Part shown: one piece after another, positions 46,505 to 64,000 of the stretch
Layout: every line of letters starts with the position of its first letter
Numbering within the stretch: the stretch's first letter is position 1
NCBI GenBank assembly: GCA_030427885.1
Contig: JAUICM010000004.1
Coordinates: 62,001 to 126,000, forward strand
Direction of reading: 5' to 3'
DNA length: 64,000 bases
From: Rhodothermia bacterium
Lineage (GTDB): Bacteria; Bacteroidota; Rhodothermia; Balneolales; Balneolaceae
Made by a program: the position numbers and the translations under genes
Notes under the pieces: model-generated
The model's database searches: none
What the model was told of the DNA's origin: nothing
What the model saw: only the letters and a program-made list of their open reading frames with translations

Positions 46505-46581
46505 GCGCCCGTAGCTCAACTGGATAGAGTACCAGGTTTCGGCCCTGGGGGTTGGGGGTTCGAACCCCTCCGGGCGTACCA
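46505..46581 (+). tRNA. tRNA-Arg (anticodon TCG), likely island attachment gene
   Basis: The acceptor GCGCCCG pairs with CGGGCGT (a G1-U72 wobble). D-stem GCTC/GAGT, anticodon stem CCAGG/CCTGG and loop TTTCGGC give anticodon TCG. The T-arm is GGGGGTTCGAACCCCTC (one G-U), the discriminator is A, and CCA is encoded (46579-46581). The gene marks the boundary between core chromosome and the A/T-rich accessory island. Confidence 0.95.
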
Positions 46582-46767: not shown

Positions 46768-48969
46768 TTAAGGGTTGAGATATTTAAAAGATTGATATGG
46801 AATATTTTCATAGAACTTTAAATATGTATCAATTTCCTGAATTTCAGCTTTAAGCAATAACTCGTTATAGTCTTTTAAATCATCTTCGATTTTTTTTATT
46901 TCAGCTTGATAATCTTTTTCTAAACTATCCACACACTCATCAAGAAAGGATTGTGTATTTCTCCAATAAGGTTCTATATACTCATTAATAATTCGATTGT
47001 AATATCCATCTTCGTTTAGATGTTTTACTACTTGTTTAGCTAGTCTTGATTTCCAACTTTCTCCGAAAATCGCTTTAACAACAAAACCAACAATTGCGCC
47101 AATAGCTATGAAAATAGTAATAGGCCCCCCGATTGCTGCAATGAAAGAAGCGGCGGAGCCAACTCCCCCAACACTAATTCCTATTGCTGAAAGTAGAGAA
47201 ACAAGCTTTGCCGTCACAATATAGCCGCCTAAATTGCCTAAAGTCGAAGCCCAAAAAGCGAAAGCACTTGCAGTAGCTAGTCCAGTTAATCCCCCTGCAA
47301 AAGATCCATAAGCATCGAATGTAGGGGCAATTTTTACATCAAGTTGCGAATTAATTTTTTCGAAATGATCATTATAATTACTGACATACTCATTAACATG
47401 CTGAGAAAAAGCTTCAGAATTTGTTTCTAAAATGACTCGTAATTTATCATTCAATAAATCAGATATGTAGCTAATGATAAGGTTCGAGGCTTCTTTTTTA
47501 TTATTGTAGTTATCGTCAATTTTGGACTGAACAAAATCTTTTTCAACAACTTCATTATAGACTTTTTTCCAACTCTCTTTACACTCTTTCTCAAGTTCTG
47601 AAACTTTAATTTTTAAGTTAACGAATGCGCTTTCAATTTCTTCCTTTCTAACGGGTTCTTCTGCGACCAATTTTTCCAAGAAGTTTCTTAGGGCTTCCTT
47701 TTGATTTAAAATTGAAGTCTTATATTGAAGTAGTTTCTTCAAATCATTTATTCTAGAATCAATGAACTCTTTGATTAATGAATAAGATGCAGGAATTTTA
47801 AGTTTGGGTAATTTGATATTGAGGAACAAATAAAGCTTTTTCTCCAAAGCCTTTCTTCTCCTCTCTATTTCAAAGTAAAATGGACTTATTCTATTTGCTA
47901 ATAGTTCAGGGGTAATTCCTGAGGTTTGTTGTTCAATTTTCCTTGTTGATTCAAAATCTTTGATATAGTTATAGAACCTATTAGAAGACCGGTCAATGAT
48001 TTTTTCAATTTCAGCGTCGCTAATTCCTTGGTGTGCATGAGAAGCAATAAGAATTAAGTTATCCAGCGCTGATTCTACTTTTACCCCTCCTGAATGATAC
48101 TTAAGTCGATTAATTAAGGAATTAATATACGTTAAGTCCTTCGAGTCTATGAACCCTTTCGTATCACTTAAATAAATTAAGGAATCAAATTCAGAAAGAA
48201 CGGTATCTGCTTTTAAAGCATTAATATCATCTTCAGATTCTGCATTGCCAGGGGCATCACAAAGTATTACTGAATCTAGTATTTTAGCATTTGAATATAG
48301 GACTGCAACCAAGGGTTCGGAGTCTTGAGGAGCATTATCAATAGAATACTTAGAGAGAGTAGCTTTATTACCTGTTTCAATTATCCAATCGTCTGAAATT
48401 TGGTTTGCTAAAAACTTATCAATTGAAAAATTTTTATTAAAAATAATAACATCATCTTTATCTGTCTTCAGTTTGTATTTGCTATGGACTACAAATGTTA
48501 CCAATGCAGTTTCTGGTTGGTAGCCACTATTTAATACTTCATCGCAAAGTAATTTATTTATTAGGAATGATTTACCGGAGTCAAATTGTCCTCGTAGGCA
48601 TACTATAGGGGGCTTAAGAGACTTAGTTATATGAGACCTTAGGGAATCTATACTCTTCAACTCGGATTTATTAAAGGCTATCTCGGCGAGATTAGCATTG
48701 ATATAATTATCCGTAAGATTGGCTTTGTCGAATAATTCAGAATATGGATTTGACCAAATTTCGTTGAACCCCTCCGTTTCTTGAAAAAAATAGTTTATAT
48801 CAACTCCCAAGGCATTACTAACATAGAATAAGTGCTCTGCAGAAATTGATTTTAAATTAAAATCATCACTTTCATATTTGGATATTTGGCCCTGAGAAAT
48901 GCCAGATCTCTCAGAAAGGTCTTTCTGATTCATTCTGGCATTTTCCCGAGCCTTTCTAATCTTATTCAT
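46768..48969 (-). CDS. XRE-type HTH fused to a dynamin-like GTPase
   Basis: 733 aa from the ATG at 48969 (MNKIRKARENARMNQKDL); an open extension to 49080 has no family sequence. Residues 3-62 are a Cro/CI-type helix-turn-helix. A dynamin-family GTPase domain follows, with P-loop GQFDSGKS at 127-134 and the G3 motif DAPG (CDAPGNAES) near residue 240. The rest is long coiled-coil helices with two hydrophobic segments at residues 551-635 (Gly/Ala-rich), as in membrane-inserting bacterial dynamins, and a C-terminal coiled coil. The G4 motif is not classical. It is first gene of the island and alone on the minus strand. Bacterial dynamins protect envelopes and some serve in phage defence; the HTH fusion suggests self-regulation or DNA-linked control. 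Confidence 0.75.
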   Translation of the reverse strand: MNKIRKARENARMNQKDLSERSGISQGQISKYESDDFNLKSISAEHLFYVSNALGVDINYFFQETEGFNEIWSNPYSELFDKANLTDNYINANLAEIAFNKSELKSIDSLRSHITKSLKPPIVCLRGQFDSGKSFLINKLLCDEVLNSGYQPETALVTFVVHSKYKLKTDKDDVIIFNKNFSIDKFLANQISDDWIIETGNKATLSKYSIDNAPQDSEPLVAVLYSNAKILDSVILCDAPGNAESEDDINALKADTVLSEFDSLIYLSDTKGFIDSKDLTYINSLINRLKYHSGGVKVESALDNLILIASHAHQGISDAEIEKIIDRSSNRFYNYIKDFESTRKIEQQTSGITPELLANRISPFYFEIERRRKALEKKLYLFLNIKLPKLKIPASYSLIKEFIDSRINDLKKLLQYKTSILNQKEALRNFLEKLVAEEPVRKEEIESAFVNLKIKVSELEKECKESWKKVYNEVVEKDFVQSKIDDNYNNKKEASNLIISYISDLLNDKLRVILETNSEAFSQHVNEYVSNYNDHFEKINSQLDVKIAPTFDAYGSFAGGLTGLATASAFAFWASTLGNLGGYIVTAKLVSLLSAIGISVGGVGSAASFIAAIGGPITIFIAIGAIVGFVVKAIFGESWKSRLAKQVVKHLNEDGYYNRIINEYIEPYWRNTQSFLDECVDSLEKDYQAEIKKIEDDLKDYNELLLKAEIQEIDTYLKFYENIPYQSFKYLNP

Positions 48970-49419
48970 TAAAGTTAAGAACTGATTTAATATTTGATGG
49001 AGTTGATAATTATGCACCACTGATCTAATAAACAAAAACCAAAAATAGAGTAGTGCTCCCTCCCTTTTTTCTTTTCGCAAGAAATAATAAGAAGAGGACT
49101 TCTCATTTTTCTGATTCCAGAATAATTATTTGTATCTGTTTAGCAATAGTTAAAATTGCACCAGCAATTATGAGTACTTTTTTCATGAGTTTTAGGAGTT
49201 TGATGAAAATTGACCTAAGAAATATATTGAATTATAATATTCTTACACAAATATTTTTTATACATAATTTTCTTTTCGTAATAATTTATTGAGTTAAAGA
49301 TGTTTTGGCCCAAATAAATGGAAGGAATCGAGCTCACTTTCCACCTCACAAAGACACCCCCCATAAGCGCTGGGGTTTAAAAGCACCCCCGCCATTAAAC
49401 TTTAACTAAAATCAAAACA
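48970..49419. other. non-coding stretch between the dynamin gene and the 115-aa gene
   Basis: 450 bases, very A/T-rich at first. It holds a weak small minus-strand ORF (separate entry) and, at 49340-49400, a C-rich leader with CCCC-ATAAGCGCT-GGGG that can form a small hairpin just before the 115-aa gene. Divergent promoters are expected here; no consensus -7 element was found. Confidence 0.5.
49103..49186 (-). CDS. possible 27-aa hydrophobic peptide
   Basis: The ATG at 49186 opens a frame reading MKKVLIIAGAILTIAKQIQI followed by IILESEK and a stop. One membrane-spanning helix with a basic start is predicted. It lies 133 bases upstream of the dynamin-like gene on the same strand. No ribosome-binding sequence is visible. 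It could be a small membrane peptide or toxin-like gene, or chance. Confidence 0.3.
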   Translation of the reverse strand: MKKVLIIAGAILTIAKQIQIIILESEK

Positions 49420-51789: not shown

Positions 51790-52104
51790 ATGAAGGGAGC
51801 AATACTATTAGCTGGGGTGTTTAGTTTTTTGGGGATGACTGAAATGCCTATTGGGTACTATACTTTTTTAAGAATCTATCTTACAATAATTAGTGGAGTA
51901 ATAGTTGTAAATGAACTCTCGAAGGAGAATAAAGTTACTGGTAAGGTCATTATGTTTACGGTTATAGGAATAGTATTTAATCCAATATTACCAGTTTATT
52001 TACATGATAAAGAATTATGGAGCCTAATTGATTTAATTGTTGGCGCTGTAATGTTAATTGAGGGTTTAAAACGAAAGAATGTAAAGGATGTCAATATCAG
52101 TTAA
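51790..52104 (+). CDS. small membrane protein (DUF6804-like)
   Basis: 104 aa from the ATG at 51790 (MKGAILLAGVFSFLGM); an upstream TTG at 51754 is less likely. Four predicted helices, with the motif PIGYYTFLRIY near residue 20, a pattern of DUF6804-type small membrane proteins that accompany accessory genes. Its end overlaps the TerB/J-domain gene by 17 bases, suggesting co-expression with the block that follows. Confidence 0.6.
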   Translation: MKGAILLAGVFSFLGMTEMPIGYYTFLRIYLTIISGVIVVNELSKENKVTGKVIMFTVIGIVFNPILPVYLHDKELWSLIDLIVGAVMLIEGLKRKNVKDVNIS

Positions 52105-52840
52105 CCTTAGCAAAGTTCTGGCGTTAATAAGCGTTGGTTTTAAAACCTATGGAATTGCTACTTCAATTCTATTGACCTGGTTAATGAAGGCTGATGGGAA
52201 AACATCAACTGATGAGCTTAAAATTCTCGACGACTATTTGCGTCAATTTGGACTTGAAGAAAATAGGGCTCTGATCTTCAAAATTGTTGATGACTTCGAC
52301 TATGATAGTATAGAATTTGCATCTGAAGTTCTTCGAAGAGAGCTGACAATAGAAGGAAAGAGACTTACAATGGATCTATTTTTGGGAATGGTAGTCGCTG
52401 ATGGATATATCACTTTTACCGAGATGTATGTGATCGAGTTCATTGCAGATTTATTTGGGTACTCTCCAGAAGTGTTAAATCAGATTTTTATTGAAGCAAC
52501 TGGCAGGCCAAAACTGGATCATGGTAACCCCAGTTCGAAGTTATGGTGGGAGAATAGAAATAAAAGATCATCTTATGAACGGAATGAGAAGCAAGAACAA
52601 GAAAAAAATAAGCAACAAAGCGCTTATGGGAACACAACTTCCCTTAAGAGGCAGCAGTCCTTTGCAATACTTGGGTTAGATGTTTCTGCAACACAAAAAG
52701 AGATAAAAGATGCGTTTAGGCTTTTATCGAAAATTCATCACCCAGATCGTTTTCACAAATTGGGAGATGAAGCCAAAAAGAGTGCCAATAAAACATATAT
52801 ACGGATTAAGGATGCGTATGAATATTTGATGACAGCATGA
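52088..52840 (+). CDS. TerB-domain protein with C-terminal J domain (DjlA-like)
   Basis: 250 aa. A TerB-like helical domain (about residues 25-140, WLMKADGKTSTDELKILDDYLRQFG, then GMVVADGYITFTEMYVIEFIADLFG) is followed by a charged linker and a J domain from residue 190 to the end, with HPD at 218-220 (KIHHPDRFHKLGDEA). The layout equals DjlA without its membrane anchor. J domains recruit DnaK. It overlaps its neighbours on both sides: 17 bases with the small membrane gene, 4 bases (ATGA) with the J-like gene. It is taken as an accessory part of the TerB/ATPase/helicase block. Confidence 0.82.
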   Translation: MSISVNLSKVLALISVGFKTYGIATSILLTWLMKADGKTSTDELKILDDYLRQFGLEENRALIFKIVDDFDYDSIEFASEVLRRELTIEGKRLTMDLFLGMVVADGYITFTEMYVIEFIADLFGYSPEVLNQIFIEATGRPKLDHGNPSSKLWWENRNKRSSYERNEKQEQEKNKQQSAYGNTTSLKRQQSFAILGLDVSATQKEIKDAFRLLSKIHHPDRFHKLGDEAKKSANKTYIRIKDAYEYLMTA

Positions 52841-53838
52841 AAAATTTATATAAGAGCTTAAATATTAATCCGAATGCTTCAGTAGCTGAGATTCAAAGAG
52901 CAGTAAAAACGGCAGTTGGCTCTTCATCCTCAATTGATGCTGAATATGTATTATTGAACAATGACAGAAGAAGGGTATTTGATCGATGTAATGATACTCT
53001 TATAAATATAGGAAAGCTTAGATCGAATCTTGGGTTGGAAAGAGGGGGAAACTGGGTAAGTCAGAACTTTACTGGGTATACATTCAAGGCGACAAGGAAT
53101 GGGTCAATAATTGATGAGATTATCAATCAGCCTCGTAACAGAAGAGTAGATTTCAATCAAACGGGAGCAAGAGATGAAGCATCAAAAACCTCAGAATCAA
53201 AATCTGGAATTGAAGTAAGGGGGGAGCCGGCACTTTCACCTGGGGGACAGGCTTTTCTATTTCTTATCACAATCTTGGTTATAGGGATAATAGTTATAGG
53301 CTATATGGAAGAGGATAACTTATCAAACTCCAATTCTTATACTGGGCAATCTAGTTCCCCCTCAATATCTGGTTCCGAACAAAATAATTTACCAGGAGTG
53401 ATTGCTGAACAGCCTGATGAGAATGTATTTAACAAGCAGCCAAGTCCACTCCCTGTTAATGGGTATGTTCGTAATTATACGTCGAGAGAAGCCTTAGCTC
53501 CTTTAGAAATACATGTCCCAAGGTTTTCGAATCACTACTTTGTAAAGCTTGAAAATTATTATTCAGGAAGTATAGATTTTATAATTTTTATTCGAGGCGG
53601 ACAGTTTGTAGAAGTTGAAGTACCTTTAGGTACTTATATAATAAAATATGCAACAGGTAAAGACTGGTACGGTGTTGTAGACTTATTCGGTCCTGGTGAC
53701 ATGACTAGAAAATATAAAGCAGAAGATATTTTCGTTTTCAAAGAAGAGTACTACCAGTACACCGGATACACAATTGAATTAATTGAACAAGTTGGGGGAA
53801 ATCTTAGAACAAGCCAATTATCAGATAGTGATTGGTAA
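52837..53838 (+). CDS. membrane protein with degenerate J-like N-terminus
   Basis: 333 aa. Residues 1-55 resemble a J domain (LYKSLNINPNASVAEIQRAVKTA, then LLNNDRRRVFDRC) but the HPD motif is missing. Residues 138-157 form one membrane helix. The last 150 residues make a beta-rich domain with the segments FVKLENYYSGSIDFIIFIRGG and YIIKYATGKDWYG. It is coupled to the TerB/J-domain gene by a four-base overlap. A gap of 134 bases separates it from the TerB-N/TerB-C gene. Function unknown; likely a membrane partner of the co-chaperone gene. Confidence 0.65.
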   Translation: MKNLYKSLNINPNASVAEIQRAVKTAVGSSSSIDAEYVLLNNDRRRVFDRCNDTLINIGKLRSNLGLERGGNWVSQNFTGYTFKATRNGSIIDEIINQPRNRRVDFNQTGARDEASKTSESKSGIEVRGEPALSPGGQAFLFLITILVIGIIVIGYMEEDNLSNSNSYTGQSSSPSISGSEQNNLPGVIAEQPDENVFNKQPSPLPVNGYVRNYTSREALAPLEIHVPRFSNHYFVKLENYYSGSIDFIIFIRGGQFVEVEVPLGTYIIKYATGKDWYGVVDLFGPGDMTRKYKAEDIFVFKEEYYQYTGYTIELIEQVGGNLRTSQLSDSDW

Positions 53839-53972: not shown

Positions 53973-56312
53973 ATGGGTACATTCTTAATAGTTTGCTTTA
54001 TTTGCTTCATTATATATCAGATATTTAAATCTGATGGAAGTCGGACTTTAGATAGGCCTAGTGAAAGAAAGCAAGTTGAGCATGGCTCACGAAATAAATC
54101 GGTAAATAATTTATATAGTTCCAATAATGAACCTAAGGCTTCTAGAGGTTCATTTTCGCATATTGATAAAATAGCAAGTGGAGAGAGAACTCAGAAATTA
54201 ACTACTAATTCAGACATACTGTGGGTTAGAAAAGATAGACCAATAAAAATTCAAGGCTATCATTTGGTTGAGGGCTTGATATATGTTGGTGAGAATTTGT
54301 CTACAATCGATAGCAGAAGTTACTGGAGAGAAGTTGAGCCATCTCTAGTTAACCCAAAACTTAGGGTTAATAAGCAAAATCCGGATTATGAAGGAAAGTC
54401 GTTAGGATATTGGTCATCTTATAAAACGATCTCTAAGGAAGCTAGGGCCGCATATTTGGAGTGGTTGGCTAGCAATCGAGATGATCCTGCAACTCCAATA
54501 GGGTTTGTTTTTTTATACTATTATGGATTAGAAAGAAGAGTTTTGTATGACATTGAGAGTTGGGGCGATAAATATGGTGAGCTTCCTTTAATTATTGAAG
54601 AAGTTAAAAGGCTTAGAAATATTTATTCTGATAATTCTTCATTCGAGCGATATAGCCGATCATTTCTTGAGTACTTAACATTTCAGGATGATATAGGAAA
54701 TAAGCTTATTGAAGCAGTAAATCAGGAAGAGTTAGACTACACAAAGTATGAGAATTCTTACTATGAGGCAGGTCTGAACTTTAGATTGGTTTTAGCATAT
54801 TACTCATTAAATCAAATCCCTCTTCCACCTAGAGTGGCTTTAAAATGGGGTATTTGGAATAAGTCCTTGAGGACTCCAGCAACTAGATGTAAAAAGGAAT
54901 TCCAGAAATTATTTGAGGAAAAGTATAAAGAAAGGTTCGGCAAAGGAGACATCGTAAAGCCTAACAAAAAGAAAATTTTCTTTTCCTATCATCCTGCCAG
55001 TAATTCATTTGGATACCAGAATCGGTTTAAACTAGATATCGACATTCCAGATTTGTTGAATTTGGAAAGTAAGCCACGAAAATATTATTCGATTGTTGAA
55101 GAATGTATATATGAGCTTGATGCTTACAGTAGGAGATTAGGTAGGGGGGCTGATCCGAACGACATTCAGGCATTGTCACAACTTCCAAAAAGATTATTAG
55201 TGGATAAAATTGATCAAAGTTTGCGTTTGTTTATTGAAGAAGTAGAATCAGATTTAACTAATGATTTGTTTGTTTTTAAAAATTCTGCGGATTTAATCAA
55301 ACTTTGGAATAAGGGCGTTGATTCAAAGTTGACTAAAAAGGAATCTGTAGAAATGGCTCAATTCTTTTCAAAGTTTGACCTAGGGCTTGAACCCGATGCT
55401 AGATTCGATAATTCTAAAGTAGAATCAGGTAATGGGGTAATTTTCTTTAAAGTTGAAGGATGGCTCTCACCAAAGAAACCATCAAAGGAATACAAGTCAG
55501 CACTTACTATATTGCACCTTAGTGTTGTAGTAGGTCTGGCAGATGGTGTTTTCAAGAAAGAGGAGAAAGACTATTTAGAATCTTATATCGAAGAGCTTTT
55601 TAAACTAACAGGGGAAGAAAAAAAGCGTCTCCACTGCTACTTAGTCTGGTTAGAACAAAGTGATCCAACTGTAAGAGGGTTGAAATCTAAGCTAGACCAA
55701 ATGACTTATAGGGATAAGGAATCTATTCTTTTCTATTTAGTTAAGCTTTCTGATGCTGATGGGTATATACACCCCAAAGAAGTAGAAATGCTACAGAAAT
55801 TGGCAAATATTTTTGAGATTGATAAACAGAAAGTATTTAGTCTAATTCATTCAGTTCAGGCCAATGATGACGAACCAATATTGGTTAAGAATAAAGATGA
55901 AGCGATAGGATACCGCCTTCCTACGCAGCCTAATGTAAATGAATTAAATAAGGATACTATAACGAAAACATTGAAAGAGACAGAAGAAATTCAAAGTATT
56001 TTGAGTGATATTTTCAATAACGAAGATGATGAAATTCAAACCCCAGAACCAAAGACGGAACAAGCTGATAAAGTTGGTAAACCACTACTTGCTATTGATG
56101 AATACCATTCTAATCTCCTTTCTAAGTTACTCGAAAAAGACGAATGGGACAGAGATGAATATGAAGAACTTTGTTCTGAACTTAATTTGTTTCCCGAAGG
56201 TGCTTTAGAGATTATAAATGAATCATCTTTTAACGCTTACGATGATGAACTGCTCATTGATAACGGTGTGATTATTATTAACAGAGAACTCTTACAAATC
56301 AATAATGGCTAG
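53973..56312 (+). CDS. membrane-anchored TerB-N/TerB-C protein (Shango SngA-like)
   Basis: 779 aa. An N-terminal membrane helix (residues 2-18) precedes a TerB-N domain at about 70-290 (WVRKDRPIKIQGYHLVEGLIYVGE, then YLEWLASNRDDPATPIGFVFLYYYGLERR). A TerB domain with two metal-type repeats (VVGLADGVFKKEEKDYLESYIEEL and KLSDADGYIHPKEVEMLQKLANIF) lies at about 505-640, and an acidic TerB-C region follows. Proteins of this layout occur with ATPase and helicase genes in the Shango anti-phage system. The stop overlaps the ATPase start by eight bases, so the two are translationally coupled. Confidence 0.85.
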   Translation: MGTFLIVCFICFIIYQIFKSDGSRTLDRPSERKQVEHGSRNKSVNNLYSSNNEPKASRGSFSHIDKIASGERTQKLTTNSDILWVRKDRPIKIQGYHLVEGLIYVGENLSTIDSRSYWREVEPSLVNPKLRVNKQNPDYEGKSLGYWSSYKTISKEARAAYLEWLASNRDDPATPIGFVFLYYYGLERRVLYDIESWGDKYGELPLIIEEVKRLRNIYSDNSSFERYSRSFLEYLTFQDDIGNKLIEAVNQEELDYTKYENSYYEAGLNFRLVLAYYSLNQIPLPPRVALKWGIWNKSLRTPATRCKKEFQKLFEEKYKERFGKGDIVKPNKKKIFFSYHPASNSFGYQNRFKLDIDIPDLLNLESKPRKYYSIVEECIYELDAYSRRLGRGADPNDIQALSQLPKRLLVDKIDQSLRLFIEEVESDLTNDLFVFKNSADLIKLWNKGVDSKLTKKESVEMAQFFSKFDLGLEPDARFDNSKVESGNGVIFFKVEGWLSPKKPSKEYKSALTILHLSVVVGLADGVFKKEEKDYLESYIEELFKLTGEEKKRLHCYLVWLEQSDPTVRGLKSKLDQMTYRDKESILFYLVKLSDADGYIHPKEVEMLQKLANIFEIDKQKVFSLIHSVQANDDEPILVKNKDEAIGYRLPTQPNVNELNKDTITKTLKETEEIQSILSDIFNNEDDEIQTPEPKTEQADKVGKPLLAIDEYHSNLLSKLLEKDEWDRDEYEELCSELNLFPEGALEIINESSFNAYDDELLIDNGVIIINRELLQINNG

Positions 56313-57621
56313 TAACAGAATAAAAGCAAAAGAAAAAGATGCTATTCTACAATCATTACGTGCAGGAGTAGTACCAAGTATTGGACTACAACACATACAA
56401 GTTGGCCGGAATGAAGAAATCAAAGCGTTGATCAAGGATATTGATCGAATCAATTCAGGAGGGTCGGCCATTCGTTTTATTATTGGAGAGTATGGGGCTG
56501 GAAAAACCTTTTTCCTTCATCTAATCCGAACGATCAGTCATCAAAAAAATCTGGTTACTATACATGCTGACCTTGCTCCAGATCGAAGAGTACATGCCTC
56601 TGCTGGTCAAGCGCGTAATTTGTATGCTGAGCTAATGAAAAATATGGCTACCAGAACAAAACCTGAGGGTAGTGCTTTATCGAACTTAGTTGAGAAGTTT
56701 ATTAGCAAGGCAATGAATGATGCCCGAACTAGCGATAAGAGTGTTGACAGCATCATACATGATAAGCTTGAAAAAGTAAAAGAAATGGTGGGTGGATATG
56801 ATTTCGCTGAGGTGATTAATTCATACTGGGAAGGTCATAATACTGGAAACGAGGAATTAAAAAGTGACGCAATTAGATGGCTTCGTGCGGAATTTTCAAC
56901 AAAAACAGATGCTAGAAACGCCCTTGGTGTCCGAACAATCATTGATGACACCAATGTGTATGATCAATTGAAGTTACTAGCTCTTTTTGTTCAAATTGCA
57001 GGTTATGATGGTTTGATGATCGGGCTGGATGAGATGGTAAACCTTTACAAGCTCAACAGTGGTGTTGCCCGGAGAAATAATTATGAACAAATCCTACGAA
57101 TTCTGAATGACTGCCTGCAAGGCAATGTTTCTGGTTTTGGATTTATTCTGAATGGCACACCTGACTTCATGATGGATACCCGCAAAGGCTTATATAGCTA
57201 TGATGCTTTACAAACTCGCTTAGCGGAAAACAGGTTTGCTGCAATTGCGGGGGTCAGAGATTTAAGTGGCCCCATAATCAGACTGAACAACCTTCAGCCA
57301 GAGGACATCTACATTCTTTTGAAAAATATTCGGCATGTATTTGCTGAAGGAATCCAAAGTGACTATTTAATTCCTGATGAAGCTTTAGAAGCATTTTTAA
57401 AGCACTGTCAAAAGCAAGTTGGAGAAGCCTATTTTCAAACTCCAAGGAATACAATACGCGCCTTTGTAGACTTGTTATCCATTTTAGAGCAAAACCCAAA
57501 TCTGGATTGGAAACAACTATTAGGAGCAGTAGAAATTGAACAAGACAAAGGACAAAAACTTTCTGATTTAGAAGAAGTTATTGATGATGAAGATGACGAG
57601 TTGTCTGATTTCAGCCTTTAA
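56305..57621 (+). CDS. BrxD-like P-loop ATPase (Shango SngB-like)
   Basis: 438 aa AAA-type ATPase of the DUF2791/BrxD kind. Walker A GEYGAGKT is at residues 61-68 and Walker B LMIGLDE near 238-243, with the family opening ESLRAGVVP-like (LQSLRAGVVPSIGLQHIQVGR). BrxD-type ATPases pair with BrxHI helicases in type 2 BREX; here no PglX/PglZ is present and the partner is TerB, as in Shango. It overlaps the TerB gene and is followed two bases later by the helicase. Confidence 0.85.
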   Translation: MASNRIKAKEKDAILQSLRAGVVPSIGLQHIQVGRNEEIKALIKDIDRINSGGSAIRFIIGEYGAGKTFFLHLIRTISHQKNLVTIHADLAPDRRVHASAGQARNLYAELMKNMATRTKPEGSALSNLVEKFISKAMNDARTSDKSVDSIIHDKLEKVKEMVGGYDFAEVINSYWEGHNTGNEELKSDAIRWLRAEFSTKTDARNALGVRTIIDDTNVYDQLKLLALFVQIAGYDGLMIGLDEMVNLYKLNSGVARRNNYEQILRILNDCLQGNVSGFGFILNGTPDFMMDTRKGLYSYDALQTRLAENRFAAIAGVRDLSGPIIRLNNLQPEDIYILLKNIRHVFAEGIQSDYLIPDEALEAFLKHCQKQVGEAYFQTPRNTIRAFVDLLSILEQNPNLDWKQLLGAVEIEQDKGQKLSDLEEVIDDEDDELSDFSL

Positions 57622-57623
57622 AA

Positions 57624-59813
57624 ATGTCCATATCAGAAGAAAATAGATCCAACTCATTTGAATTGCTCGAAGAATCAATTCAACGATGGATCTGGAAAGA
57701 AAATTGGGCCCAGTTAAGAGATATTCAAGAGGAGGCAATACCATTAATACTGGAGGCAAAAAAAGATTTAATAATTGCGTCAGCAACCGCAAGTGGTAAA
57801 ACAGAAGCCGCATTTCTTCCCATTCTTTCAAACTGTATAACTGCAAGTTCAAGTGGGGTATTTGCTTTATATGTCGCTCCCCTTAAAGCATTGATAACAG
57901 ATCAAACATCTCGGTTAGAAGAAATTGCTCGTTATTCAAATACTGCTATAACTCCCTGGCATGGAGATGTCAGCCAGAACAAAAAAACAACTTTAATAAA
58001 AAATCCCAGTGGGGTTTTGCTCATTACCCCGGAATCTCTGGAGTCTGTATTCATTAATCATGGAACAAAGTTAAGGCATCTATTCTCAAATCTTTCCTAT
58101 GTTGTTATTGATGAGATGCATTCTTTCATTGGAGTAGAGAGAGGCAAACAATTACAATCACTTTTACAAAGGCTCGAAATTGTAGTTGGGAAAAATATCC
58201 CAAGAATCGGATTAAGTGCAACTTTAGGAGACCGTCAACTAGCCAAAAAATTTCTTCGTTGTACAGAAAACACTGATCAAATTGAGTACATAGAATCAAC
58301 ATCGTTTAAAAGTAATTTGAAACTACAGCTCAAGGGCTTTGTTAGTAAGAAGCCAGATTTGAATGCTGAGTCCATTGAGCTTCCCCCCTCTTATCATATT
58401 ACTGAACACTTATTCCAAAAACTAAGAGGTTCACACAATCTTATTTTTGCTAACTCAAGAAGCAATGTCGAATTATATGCCGATTTACTTCGTCAAAAAT
58501 GTGACCAAGAGAAAGTCCCATTGGAGTTTTATCCCCATCATGGAAACTTGTCGAAAAGTCTAAGAGAACATGTTGAAGCTGAATTAAAAAATAAATCCAA
58601 ACCCTCTTCCGCAGTCTGTACAACTACCTTAGAAATGGGAATCGATATTGGATCTGTAAAAAGTATCGCTCAGATTGGGTGTCCTCCAAGCGTGGCCAGT
58701 ATGAAGCAGCGTTTGGGAAGATCTGGAAGAAGAGATGAGGCTTCAATACTAAGAATGTACCAGATCGAGGCAGAGGTTGACAAACAAACTTCTATTCAGG
58801 ACAAGCTTCGAGCTGGCCTGGTTCAATCGGTTGCAATGACAAATTTAATGTTAGAAAAATGGGTTGAACCACCAAATTTAGACAACTTGCATTTATCAAC
58901 CCTTGTACAGCAAATACTTTCGATTATTGCCCAATATGGAGGTATAAGGGCAACGGAACTTTGGTATATATTGATTGAAAAAGGTGTTTTTAGTGGAATA
59001 AACAAACAAGATTTTAAGGAGCTGTTAACAAAACTGGGGCAGGATGAAATAATTACCCAGCAAAGCGACAAAACTTTAACTCTTGGAATAAAAGGCGAAA
59101 GTGTTGTTGGGCACTACTCTTTTTATGCGGTTTTTAAAACACCCGAGGAGTATACGATAATAGCTAACGGTAAGAATTTAGGATCATTGCCTGTGGAATT
59201 CCCTTTGATTGAGGGTACCTTTATAATCTTTGGAGGCAAAAGATGGGTTATTAAATCTATTGATGATGAGAAAAAGATCATTGAATTAGTTCGTTCCAAA
59301 GGCGGAAAACCACCCATTTTTAACGGCGAAGGACTTGGGGTTCATGATGAAATCCGCAAGGGTATGAGACTAGTTTATATGGATAGTTCAGTACCAATAT
59401 ACCTCGATTCCGTTGCTTCTGAGCTACTACAAGAAGGAAGAAAGTATTTTAATTACTATGATCTTGGTTCCTCAATGATCATAGATGATGGTGGTTCACT
59501 TTTATTTTTTCCGTGGAAAGGAACAACAATTATGAACACACTTCAGATACTGTTCGCCATGAATGGATTACAAGCGACAAATGAGGGGATTGCTATTTCG
59601 ATAGCTGGTATTACTCAAAAAGAATTTAACACATTATTGAATAAGATCTCTAAGACATCAGAAAGTGAGTTATTTGCCTTCTTGAAAAAGGTTAAAAACA
59701 AGGAAGTAGAAAAATATGATCACCTACTCCCTGAACAACTATTAACACTTTGTTATCAATCAAGATCTATTAACCTTGCAAATACTATTAGATTTTTACA
59801 CTCATACATCTAA
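57624..59813 (+). CDS. Lhr/BrxHI-like superfamily II helicase (Shango SngC-like)
   Basis: 729 aa. Helicase motifs: Walker A SATASGKT at residues 53-60, APLKAL, DEMH at about 163-166, SAT (LSATLGD), FANSRSNVE and the arginine-finger motif QRLGRSGRR near 362-370. The C-terminal half carries Lhr-type extra domains. It is taken as an ATP-driven DNA translocase or helicase with the neighbouring ATPase. The start is two bases after the ATPase gene. Resemblance to BrxHI is inferred from motif order and neighbour type. Confidence 0.87.
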   Translation: MSISEENRSNSFELLEESIQRWIWKENWAQLRDIQEEAIPLILEAKKDLIIASATASGKTEAAFLPILSNCITASSSGVFALYVAPLKALITDQTSRLEEIARYSNTAITPWHGDVSQNKKTTLIKNPSGVLLITPESLESVFINHGTKLRHLFSNLSYVVIDEMHSFIGVERGKQLQSLLQRLEIVVGKNIPRIGLSATLGDRQLAKKFLRCTENTDQIEYIESTSFKSNLKLQLKGFVSKKPDLNAESIELPPSYHITEHLFQKLRGSHNLIFANSRSNVELYADLLRQKCDQEKVPLEFYPHHGNLSKSLREHVEAELKNKSKPSSAVCTTTLEMGIDIGSVKSIAQIGCPPSVASMKQRLGRSGRRDEASILRMYQIEAEVDKQTSIQDKLRAGLVQSVAMTNLMLEKWVEPPNLDNLHLSTLVQQILSIIAQYGGIRATELWYILIEKGVFSGINKQDFKELLTKLGQDEIITQQSDKTLTLGIKGESVVGHYSFYAVFKTPEEYTIIANGKNLGSLPVEFPLIEGTFIIFGGKRWVIKSIDDEKKIIELVRSKGGKPPIFNGEGLGVHDEIRKGMRLVYMDSSVPIYLDSVASELLQEGRKYFNYYDLGSSMIIDDGGSLLFFPWKGTTIMNTLQILFAMNGLQATNEGIAISIAGITQKEFNTLLNKISKTSESELFAFLKKVKNKEVEKYDHLLPEQLLTLCYQSRSINLANTIRFLHSYI

Positions 59814-59822
59814 TTACCTTAT

Positions 59823-60677
59823 ATGCTGGTTGCTAAAAATGAATTTAACCAAGAATGCTTTGCTTGGAATACAAGTAAATCGGAGGGATCTTTTTTTTGT
59901 CGCGACTGTAATGAACAAGTCGTATTGAAAAAAGGAAAGATTAGGGAACACCATTTTGCTCATAAAGCTTACAGTAAGTGCTCTAGTAATGTTGGCGAAT
60001 CAAATATTCATTATAAATGCAAAAGGGAACTTTATACTGCTTTAACGAAACAAGAAAACTGTTCAAGCTGCTTTATGGAACTTAAAGTAGGCCCACTAAG
60101 ACCGGATATTTGCCTTAGAATAAATGGCAGACCGGTAGTCATTGAAGTTCAGAGAAGTTCCATTGATATAGACGTTATTATTAAGAGAACGCGCTATTAT
60201 TCGAATTACAAAAGGGAAAATATTTTTGTCCTTTGGATATTACCTAACGAGAGTGTGTTAAAGACCAGGTTTAGTAAAAAGCACAACAAAAAACTTACTT
60301 ACCCAAAAAGCTGGCAACTTTTTCTACATCAAATGTATTTCGGAAGAATTTACATTTGGAGTCATAACTCCTTTGTTAAACCTCTCCACCTATCAAAATT
60401 TGAATTTTATGTTGAAGAAGGGAACTGGGTAGAAGAAAGCCCTGAAGAGTTCCACAATACCAATTGGTATAACAATCAAGTGGGGTATGCAAATTATGGA
60501 GGATATAAGAAGACTTCAAAAACACAGTACCTGTCAATACCTCCAATAAACAAGGAGAACCAACTAATGGATATCTCAAAAGATTTCCATTTTGAAGGTC
60601 GATCTGAATTGGTTCAAAAAAACTGGGATGTTCCTTCAGCTAATTTGCTAATTGATAGACAATCCAAATGGTGGTAG
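59823..60677 (+). CDS. CoiA-like PD-(D/E)XK nuclease domain protein
   Basis: 284 aa. The N-terminal zinc-finger-like part (CRDC at 26-29, then HHFAHKAYSKC) is followed by a restriction-nuclease-like domain (RPDICLRINGRPVVIEVQRS, with Asp95, Glu108 and Gln110 as candidate catalytic residues). This is the arrangement of CoiA, a competence-linked nuclease-family protein. It starts nine bases after the helicase stop and is on the same strand. It may be a nuclease effector or an extra partner of the Shango-like core; an unrelated competence role is also possible. Confidence 0.72.
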   Translation: MLVAKNEFNQECFAWNTSKSEGSFFCRDCNEQVVLKKGKIREHHFAHKAYSKCSSNVGESNIHYKCKRELYTALTKQENCSSCFMELKVGPLRPDICLRINGRPVVIEVQRSSIDIDVIIKRTRYYSNYKRENIFVLWILPNESVLKTRFSKKHNKKLTYPKSWQLFLHQMYFGRIYIWSHNSFVKPLHLSKFEFYVEEGNWVEESPEEFHNTNWYNNQVGYANYGGYKKTSKTQYLSIPPINKENQLMDISKDFHFEGRSELVQKNWDVPSANLLIDRQSKWW

Positions 60678-60690
60678 TAACCTATTTAAT

Positions 60691-61584
60691 TTAGATAATG
60701 TAGGATGGCCTAAAAATTACTTCCAGAGTGTAACTGACTATTTCAATATGTGGTTCTAGTCTAGCATAATTAATTATGTCCTCACTCATTTTTTGCGCAC
60801 CACCATGAACAAGAATACCACGAGGTATCCTATTAGTTTCTTCTTTAAGTAATCTCATGTAGTGTCGTAATTGATCAATAGATTGATGACTTGGCCCATA
60901 CTGTTTGCATTCTACAATTACTGGATTATCCCTTTTGTCAATCAGAAGTACATCCAAGCGACTTCTATCCCTAAATACTTTTTCCCGGATCTTAGAATCT
61001 GGGTGTGGAAGTAAACCATCTTCTAAATAATTGGGATAATTAGAAATGTAATCAGACAATGCTTTTTCATACTTAAATTTTCCTAAAAGGCTAACCCAAT
61101 TAGTTGGATCATTCATCAAGTTTTTGATTTCATCAATTGAAAATGAGCTAACTCTTGAAATAGTATTCCTAAGTTCACCAGTTGTGAGTGTATTAGAACT
61201 CGGTAATTGGATCACCAAATCTTGATCATCTGGTCCTACCGTTAAATCCCATCTTACAAAAATCCTCCTCCCCATTTCTCCATCTTTTTCCAGTTCGCTT
61301 ACAGGAACTAAAGGGTTCCATTCATCATCATCTATCGCCTTACCTGTTATCTGGCCTATTCTTCCAATCCTGTGTCCTTGTAAAGCAACAATAACATGAT
61401 CGCCGATTTTCATTTCTTTAAGAGCTTTTCTAGCGACACTCCACCCTCTGTCTTTGGCTTTTCCACCCATATAAAACCCCCATTCACTGTACCACCCAAC
61501 TGCAACGCATTGATTCTTATACCAGCGCTGCCACATGCCTGGATATTTGTTTTCCATACAGTTTACTTTCCAAAGCGCACTCAT
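60691..61584 (-). CDS. EVE-like domain fused to NucS-like PD-(D/E)XK endonuclease
   Basis: 297 aa. Residues 1-125 resemble an EVE/PUA-like reader of modified bases (WKVNCMENKYPGMWQRW, then KEMKIGDHVIVALQGHRIGRIGQITG). Residues 160-297 form a NucS/EndoMS-like nuclease with Asp211, Glu225 and Lys227 (RSRLDVLL, VIVECKQYG) and the Q238-LRH-Y242 motif. It starts inside the end of the glycosylase gene (four-base ATGA overlap), so the two are one transcription unit. A modification-dependent DNA nuclease is the inferred role. It is convergent with the CoiA-like gene. Confidence 0.78.
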   Translation of the reverse strand: MSALWKVNCMENKYPGMWQRWYKNQCVAVGWYSEWGFYMGGKAKDRGWSVARKALKEMKIGDHVIVALQGHRIGRIGQITGKAIDDDEWNPLVPVSELEKDGEMGRRIFVRWDLTVGPDDQDLVIQLPSSNTLTTGELRNTISRVSSFSIDEIKNLMNDPTNWVSLLGKFKYEKALSDYISNYPNYLEDGLLPHPDSKIREKVFRDRSRLDVLLIDKRDNPVIVECKQYGPSHQSIDQLRHYMRLLKEETNRIPRGILVHGGAQKMSEDIINYARLEPHIEIVSYTLEVIFRPSYII

Positions 61585-62081
61585 TGATCCTCAATAACTT
61601 TCATAAGTTCAAACCAGTATTCTTCATCCCAAAATGCGTTAGCAGCACCCGATGTTGACGGCAAAATAAAAACTCGGATTCCTGCTAATCTTTCTGTAAA
61701 CAAACCATAGCCTATTTTCTTTGTGTTCCCATTCAGACCGAGCGCCCAGGCCGCTGATTTCTTGCCATTGAATGCCACAACAGTAGGTTTATATTTCTCA
61801 AGTTTAGAAATAAAGCCGCTAACATTAAAAGCCTGATTACTTAATGAGCTATCTGACCCAAATTGTGTTTTCACCAAGTCTGTTATTCCTATCCTAAAGT
61901 CCAATAATTTTGGATATTCCTGAGGGTCTAGAGAATATGGTGTTAATCCAATTTTGAAGAGAATTGAGTAAAACTTGTTTCCTGGGCCAGCATAATATGC
62001 ATCCATTTGCATTGATGTTGAACCTACTGCTGTACCGCAAAAAATTACTTTTAATCCCGGTTTCAAAAGATCAGATAACAT
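61581..62081 (-). CDS. Mug-family mismatch-specific DNA glycosylase (uracil-glycosylase fold)
   Basis: 166 aa. UDG-fold protein of the Mug group: motif 1 region VIFCGTAVGS (residues 13-21), AGPGNKFYSIL, IGITDLVKTQFG and motif B-like LPSTSGAANAFWDEEYW. E. coli Mug has INPG with a catalytic Asn at the motif 1 site; here the site reads GTAVG with no Asn, as in a distinct subgroup that I recall having GTAAG-type motifs. Substrate therefore uncertain. It is coupled to the EVE-nuclease gene. Confidence 0.82.
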   Translation of the reverse strand: MLSDLLKPGLKVIFCGTAVGSTSMQMDAYYAGPGNKFYSILFKIGLTPYSLDPQEYPKLLDFRIGITDLVKTQFGSDSSLSNQAFNVSGFISKLEKYKPTVVAFNGKKSAAWALGLNGNTKKIGYGLFTERLAGIRVFILPSTSGAANAFWDEEYWFELMKVIEDQ

Positions 62082-62358: not shown

Positions 62359-62610
62359 TTACAAGTTCTTTACATATTCAAACCTACTCTCAACTTCCTC
62401 AATCAACTCGCTCATCTTCATACCCAGTGAAAGTGCTACAAGCATAAGAGATTGTGCGGTAGGGTTTTTGATCCCTCTCTCTATTTCTGAAATATAAACG
62501 GCACTGGTATCACACCTCTCAGCCAGTTCTTCTTGAGTAAGATTTCTATCGACCCTCAATTCCTTGATGGTTTCTCCAATGGCAATATTTAATCCTTCCA
62601 CTTTTTTCAC
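62359..62610 (-). CDS. XRE family small transcriptional regulator
   Basis: 83 aa, almost entirely a Cro/CI HTH: IGETIKELRVDRNLTQEELAERCDTSAVYISEIERGIKNPTAQSLMLVALSLGM. It is divergent from the 92-aa gene that follows (66-base gap), so a repressor acting on the shared region is likely. The candidate operators are the 16-bp palindrome at the 92-aa gene start or the 23-bp palindrome upstream of the glycosylase. Confidence 0.88.
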   Translation of the reverse strand: MKKVEGLNIAIGETIKELRVDRNLTQEELAERCDTSAVYISEIERGIKNPTAQSLMLVALSLGMKMSELIEEVESRFEYVKNL

Positions 62611-63535: not shown

Positions 63536-64000
63536 TCAACTACTTGAATAAAATATTCCTTCGGCCCTCCTGGATCTGTTTAATCCACAGGATTTTAACT
63601 TAACATAAAAGTCCCTGTCGCCGAGTACATTAAACCCATTCTCTTTACAATGTAAAAGATACTTCTCATGTAACTCGGAAGCCCTAGCGGGTAAAGTTAC
63701 TTCTTTAAATAAGTCCGATTCAATAAAAGAGTGAACAGTATCAGTGCTTTGCTTATACCATTCCAATATTTGATCAGAGCTCTCACAAGGGCTGAAAGCT
63801 TCTTGTTCTTCCAGCCTGACAAGCCCCTCCAAAATCCAGTTCATAATTCCCGGAAGTTCGGTAGCAATAATTTCTTCAGCCAAATGCTTATTACGTTCAT
63901 CTTTTGGAATGTATTCATCAAACGGAACGATTAAAAAGCGTCTATAAAAGCCTTCTGAAGTATCATTAGTTTCTGGGAGTTCATTACAATTGAATGCTAA
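63536..64000 (-). CDS. P4-family phage/plasmid primase-helicase, partial (5' end beyond the window)
   Basis: 155 codons are visible, in frame to base 64000. The segment near the window edge reads FNCNELPETNDTSEGFYRRFLIVPF, typical of the C-terminal SF3 helicase domain of P4 alpha/D5-like primases. It continues with a winged-helix-like tail (EWYKQSTDTVHSFIESDLF, then GDRDFYVKLKSCGLNRSRRAEGIFY). No ATG starts the frame inside the window: a TTG at 63883 is only an internal codon. This is the replication module of a mobile element and shows that the island continues to the right. Confidence 0.85.
   Translation of the reverse strand, partial: LAFNCNELPETNDTSEGFYRRFLIVPFDEYIPKDERNKHLAEEIIATELPGIMNWILEGLVRLEEQEAFSPCESSDQILEWYKQSTDTVHSFIESDLFKEVTLPARASELHEKYLLHCKENGFNVLGDRDFYVKLKSCGLNRSRRAEGIFYSSS

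Follow-up and report, generated by a model that had tools for sequence, protein, structure and literature searches.

An XRE helix-turn-helix fused to a bacterial dynamin in a rare mobile family with a possible role in anti-phage defence

Judged from its sequence, the product of a single-copy gene of a Rhodothermia bacterium is a bacterial dynamin with an N-terminal XRE-type helix-turn-helix (HTH). The gene lies in a window of 64,000 nucleotides (the whole stretch of DNA that was analysed; contig JAUICM010000004.1), and a genome search returned no second copy. Here we trace this HTH-dynamin through its domains, its relatives and their promoters, several of which carry operator-like dyads. The interpretation that we favour, with confidence that is evenly balanced, is that of a rare mobile single-chain dynamin with a built-in XRE repressor, most likely a self-controlling anti-phage membrane effector.

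Domain architecture of the HTH-dynamin

The gene and the parts of its product were assigned to the following positions:

46768..48969, (-) strand: HTH-dynamin gene (open reading frame and translation, 733 aa, ATG at 48969)
48787..48960, (-) strand: XRE helix-turn-helix, residues 4-61 (PF01381 HTH_3, E 7.2e-11)
48121..48597, (-) strand: dynamin GTPase domain, residues 125-283 (PF00350 Dynamin_N, E 4.1e-8)
48568..48591, (-) strand: P-loop GQFDSGKS, residues 127-134 (G127, D130, G132 and K133 invariant in 10 of 10 family members)
48247..48258, (-) strand: G3 motif DAPG, residues 238-241 (D238, P240 and G241 invariant in 10 members)
47053..47319, (-) strand: Gly/Ala-rich hydrophobic paddle, residues 551-639 (conserved; presumed membrane contact)

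The HTH_3 match scores 42.4 bits against a Pfam cut-off of 23 bits and assigns the N-terminal domain to the Cro/C1 type; HTH_19 is likewise above its cut-off, and R8, S30, E33 and G55 are invariant in an alignment of ten family members. A sequence-only reading of the window had placed an XRE domain at residues 3-62, and the profile recovers it there. The same reading had described the part that follows as a dynamin-like GTPase with the motifs GQFDSGKS and DAPG. Both motifs are present as noted and Dynamin_N scores 33.9 bits, above its cut-off of 27 bits. Together with the G2 threonine T154, which is invariant in the ten family members, the P-loop and the DxPG form of G3 place the protein in the dynamin GTPase superfamily. 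The G4 motif N/TKxD was not recovered, as the aligned position is degenerate across the family and reads SHA, SQA or TRSD. Since this motif is generally variable, its degeneration weakens the claim on GTP more than the superfamily assignment, and GTP is not certain to be the substrate.

Two Gly/Ala-rich membrane-type segments had been proposed as well. The two segments correspond reasonably well to a single paddle in two parts (bipartite), because a continuous hydrophobic stretch (residues 580-639, Kyte-Doolittle above 1.4) lies inside the conserved paddle, of which F551, N579-L580-G581, Y583 and G614-G615-P616 are invariant in the ten members. Residues 396-703, which cover stalk and paddle, match the PADLOC profiles LeoBC (E 6e-12) and LeoA (E 2e-10), and a dynamin profile built from seven family members matched Nostoc BDLP1, Campylobacter DLP1, mitofusin and IniA in the PDB. 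An AlphaFold (AF2) model from a two-row alignment only has a mean pLDDT of 39.9, with the HTH part alone being confident (pLDDT 74-79 for residues 1-30). The model is too poor to use, so that the assignment of the dynamin fold rests on sequence profiles. Pfam matches to FliD_C, DUF445 and Gtr1_RagA were below cut-off and were disregarded.

Distribution and genomic settings of the fusion

The query for homologues was the dynamin part without the HTH (from residue 66), and the sequence upstream of each hit was then inspected for an HTH. Homologues without the fusion had been named as a possible refutation of its significance; an N-terminal HTH was found in all distinct full-length or near-full-length relatives. 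The fusion is present in a Bacteroidota genome from the family of the source organism (G020, 33% identity), on plasmids of Carboxydocella (Clostridia), Acinetobacter, Lactiplantibacillus and Lactococcus, in four P2-like phages of Vibrio, in two further Bacillota genomes and in an SXT/R391-type element (ICE) of E. coli, the protein of which is 60% identical to the Vibrio protein over its whole length. The family was found in 2 of 394 Bacteroidota, 3 of 348 Bacillota and 4 of 5,426 E. coli genomes. Pfam detects the HTH significantly in six of the seven relatives scanned, and that of Vibrio is visible by alignment only. Ordinary dynamins, which gave weak matches of E 1e-10 to 1e-14, carried no HTH. 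A scan of viral contigs with six queries returned the Vibrio phage copy as the sole find, and one XRE protein from a scan of close-relative contigs was unrelated and discarded.

Across the family, pairs of proteins with higher identity in the HTH also have higher identity in the dynamin part (Mantel r 0.83-0.88, p ≤0.0002), and this holds with clades collapsed (r 0.65, p 0.004). As the two parts diverge in step and every full-length relative has the fusion, it looks like one old event that was inherited as a unit, and the HTH-dynamins accordingly look like one old, rare and horizontally moving family across three bacterial phyla. The alternative of a local recombination or an annotation artefact is refuted by this conservation: the same architecture with correlated divergence in three phyla leaves it practically no probability. 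Individual copies do depart from the common plan. The Acinetobacter plasmid copy (L008:2187-4333) is apparently split, with a main frame that stops within the paddle and a small next frame that resembles the missing C-terminal end. Two Lactococcus plasmid copies (L016:3357-5366 and L017:2534-4561) have a short unrelated stretch in place of the conserved paddle, suggesting paddle variants or decay; the third copy (L015) does not share this replacement.

In the window, the gene is accompanied by the following features:

46505..46581, (+) strand: tRNA-Arg (TCG anticodon), island boundary (ARAGORN)
46563..46579, (+) strand: attL AACCCCTCCGGGCGTAC, exact 17-bp repeat and copy of the tRNA 3' end
53973..59813, (+) strand: Shango anti-phage system, complete, in the same element (PADLOC)
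63536..64000, (-) strand: D5-type helicase, C-terminal part (Pox_D5 E 0.0065, below the curated cut-off)

The second copy of the repeat, attR, lies outside the window, 20.9 kb downstream at the equivalent of 67512-67528 (L021:3512-3528), where it adjoins a tyrosine recombinase (L021:2157-3377); an HTH_17 protein is also part of the element. The frame of the D5-type helicase runs past the window into L021:1-1014 and contains GTGANGKS. An att repeat in a tRNA, a tyrosine recombinase and a D5-type helicase together mark a P4-like satellite or integrative element. The two repeats enclose a complete integrative element that occupies about 21 kb at tRNA-Arg and carries the HTH-dynamin gene at its tRNA side as the first gene after the tRNA, in agreement with the earlier placement at the tRNA end of an island. 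At the boundary of the element, G+C drops from about 0.44 to 0.34. Three related genomes that lack a full-length HTH-dynamin keep the left flank (nqr-apbE-tRNA-Arg); an empty att site was sought in them, but their right side is unlike the right flank of the window and none was demonstrated.

The Shango system of the element consists of SngA (53973-56312, E 3.7e-74), SngB (56305-57621, E 7.7e-180) and SngC (57624-59813, E 3.6e-264), and Shango has been experimentally tested as an anti-phage system (PMC10250203). We rejected the HTH-dynamin as a member of its operon, as it lies on the opposite strand about 5 kb off and Shango is complete without it. No partner gene adjoins the HTH-dynamin of the window. 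Further cargo surrounds Shango. On its 5' side, a TerB-DnaJ protein (52088-52840) and a J-domain-like membrane protein (52837-53838) are possibly accessory. On the other side, the adjoining region 59823-62081 encodes CoiA-nuclease-like, NucS-C-like and uracil-DNA-glycosylase-superfamily proteins, which are possible further defence cargo. A small separate XRE regulator of 83 aa (62359-62610) in the same element is a candidate element control gene.

Relatives occupy known defence or variable hotspots and almost all of them are found on mobile elements. The Vibrio phage copy lies between gpA and portal, a position known as a P2 phage defence hotspot (PMC9122126), and in the SXT/R391-type element of E. 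coli the gene is flanked by traN on one side and ssb/bet on the other, a site that corresponds to hotspot HS4, traN-s063 (PMC3850215). Such contexts would fit the pattern of mobile defence cargo, with the qualification that hotspots also hold other cargo. In combination, the neighbouring Shango system, the P2 and SXT/R391 hotspots and the similarity to LeoBC and LeoA point, by association, to a putative anti-phage role of the HTH-dynamin. Alternatively, the protein could serve the stability or housekeeping of the mobile element itself, by excision or copy-number control or by membrane anchoring in transfer, as plasmids, phage, ICE and integrative islands carry almost all relatives. However, these carriers are of unrelated types with differing replication and transfer machinery, and the gene sits in cargo hotspots and is missing from most related elements, as its presence in just four of the E. 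coli genomes illustrates; we therefore regard a housekeeping function as improbable. In G020 (L043:4747-11963), too, the HTH-dynamin gene has an integrative element as its neighbour: it is oriented divergently to an integrase gene that has a prim-pol/D5 gene next to it.

Several relatives are accompanied by further genes. The Vibrio locus (L009:4554-7450) and the E. coli ICE locus (L056:11689-14752) have a common downstream membrane-anchored partner of 179 and 172 aa, respectively (32% identical, E 2e-19). The operon of the E. coli ICE opens with an 80-aa Gly/Ala-rich hydrophobic protein. Two Bacillota genomes (L041:2774-7448 and L042:9819-14481) have a common operon composed of the HTH-dynamin, a 278-aa unknown protein, a Tox-GHH nuclease-like protein with a hydrophobic C-terminal part and an SMI1/KNR4-family protein. 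On a Lactococcus plasmid (L017:2534-10190), two HTH-dynamin genes flank the PADLOC candidate system PDC-M09 (PDC-M09AB), of which PDC-M09A resembles LeoBC over one segment (E 1e-8). The partner genes are unrelated between lineages, and their presence suggests that neighbours adjust the outcome of HTH-dynamin action in other lineages. They could also indicate a toxin-antitoxin-like arrangement, in which the HTH represses its own gene, a partner neutralises the protein, and loss or interference by a phage frees a membrane-disrupting dynamin that causes abortive infection. The partner common to Vibrio and E. coli would agree with this arrangement, as would the conserved gene, the Tox-GHH nuclease-like gene and the SMI1/KNR4-family gene that follow the Bacillota copies. 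Still, the absence of an adjacent partner in the window and the lack of relationship between the partners of different lineages make it an unlikely explanation for the family.

Promoter dyads and autoregulation

The region upstream of the gene in the window was scanned for operators in the same way as the promoters of its relatives:

48970..49419, (-) strand: presumed promoter/operator region, intergenic (dyad scans with shuffles, no significant operator)

The Vibrio promoter supplied the first dyad pattern, AGAC-N6-GTCT, which is 14 bp long. This pattern occurs twice in the 11.8 kb of the Vibrio locus with a chance mean of 0.16, a count that is not independent because the pattern was taken from this very promoter. 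The E. coli locus provides the independent test, and here the pattern again occurs twice in 26 kb (chance mean 0.32). All four matches lie directly upstream of the HTH-dynamin gene or its operon. When both promoters are aligned, three dyad positions exactly 30 bp apart are arranged around a TTGACA -35 box, the middle one being degenerate in Vibrio and the third in E. coli. The two promoters sit in unrelated elements, and apart from the HTH of the dynamin itself the two operons share no evident DNA-binding domain. The promoter of Carboxydocella, where the recognition helix differs, has two 14-bp dyads of a different pattern read off this promoter, ATGC-N6-GCAT, which are again exactly 30 bp apart. 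A single ATGC-N6-GCAT is found in genome G504, in a long palindrome that adjoins the -35 box; with one occurrence in 15 kb against 0.4 expected, it is notable for its position alone. In Lactococcus, a perfect palindrome follows directly after the -10 box. These arrangements support autoregulation by the fused HTH as a probable property of the relatives and of the family.

Self-repression had already been proposed for the HTH-dynamin of the window, together with release upon phage infection and action on the membrane. The tandem dyads of the relatives, which resemble operators, speak for self-repression, whereas the promoter of the window itself has no significant dyad (p 0.29, dyad scan against shuffles). 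A tandem dyad with a score of 16.5 at the far upstream end of its region reached p 0.025 among ten tests; it lies next to the divergent gene and was not taken as an operator. The tandem-dyad test gave nothing significant in G020, Acinetobacter, Lactiplantibacillus and G474, including a suggestive repeat of G020, TGTATTCATA, for which p was 0.54. Short sequences were shuffled to obtain all these significance values, and the geometry of the dyads had been noticed before its test.

A different role of the HTH is conceivable as a sensor or tether of foreign DNA: phage or plasmid DNA would be held at the membrane, and the dynamin would block its entry, replication or segregation. A DNA-binding membrane protein could tether DNA, family members are located in hotspots and on plasmids, and the promoter of the window without a clear operator would be compatible with such a function. 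On the other hand, within loci of 11.8-26 kb the dyads of Vibrio and E. coli match nowhere except at the promoter of the HTH-dynamin gene itself, which is what autoregulation predicts. We give the tether little credence.

A possible switch and its relation to known systems

DNA binding by the HTH-dynamin, a switch by titration to the membrane, defence activity and a phage as the trigger are what we infer from the combined evidence, and they could be connected as follows. In the unstimulated cell, the dynamin body would multimerise the protein, the HTH ends would occupy operator dyads at the promoter of the HTH-dynamin gene, and expression would stay low. With a period of 30 bp, the dyads are about three helical turns apart and would face roughly the same side of the DNA, an arrangement that would suit an oligomer. 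Infection or membrane damage would recruit the dynamin part to the inner membrane, where it would assemble with GTP, and release of the protein from the DNA would lift the repression. The larger amount of protein made from the freed promoter would reinforce the response. Action on the membrane could either delay lysis, as with DynA, or disrupt the membrane fatally and thereby stop the infection. In its most far-reaching form, this would be an immune switch of a new class: a single dynamin chain would act as repressor, sensor of the membrane state and effector, oligomerise on tandem operators spaced by 30 bp at its own promoter and swap DNA for membrane under envelope attack. We put this forward tentatively, as a possibility on the less likely side.

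Among the systems that come to mind, the closest logic is that of the proline dehydrogenase PutA, in which a repressor domain is fused to a membrane-acting enzyme and leaves the operator upon recruitment to the membrane. The domains of PutA, a ribbon-helix-helix and a flavoenzyme with a metabolic trigger, are unrelated to those of the HTH-dynamin. DynA of Bacillus subtilis, which consists of two fused dynamin units and to our knowledge has no HTH, is set apart from the HTH-dynamin by this description. Moreover, it is a chromosomal host dynamin, unlike the HTH-dynamin, which is borne by mobile elements. DynA has been reported to protect at the population level against phages through delayed lysis (PMC8844932). 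The Eleos system (LeoABC; LeoA, LeoB and LeoC of ETEC) likewise comprises bacterial dynamin-like proteins on a mobile island, with similarity in stalk and paddle. However, Eleos is a pair of adjacent dynamin genes (LeoA and LeoBC) without a DNA-binding domain, whereas the HTH-dynamin is one gene with an N-terminal XRE HTH. Membership in Eleos was rejected, as the region holds no second dynamin and the genome has just one further Dynamin_N frame, a short one outside this region. We know of no DNA-binding domain in Nostoc BDLP1 and Campylobacter DLP1. Both rank high among the PDB entries that the family profile matches (2J68, E 1.2e-10 and 5OWV, E 4.4e-6, respectively), mainly over the GTPase and neck region. 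In the anti-phage system PD-lambda-2, an XRE HTH is fused to an effector (Xre-peptidase; PMC9519451). There, a toxin-antitoxin-like operon encodes the effector, a peptidase, in contrast to the dynamin of the family described here. Fusions of XRE domains to effectors are thus already known in defence; what the HTH-dynamin appears to add is the combination of XRE and dynamin, and a family with this fusion was not found described in the literature searched.

Bacterial dynamins are membrane remodellers and some are phage-defence proteins, but how they are switched is largely an open question. What raises the HTH-dynamin above the ordinary is that its regulation is directly testable: a built-in repressor and operators that can be read from the sequence make the switching of a dynamin accessible to experiment. 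In conclusion, a single chain of the HTH-dynamin would connect transcription with a membrane GTPase, comparable to PutA in metabolism but as part of mobile defence cargo.
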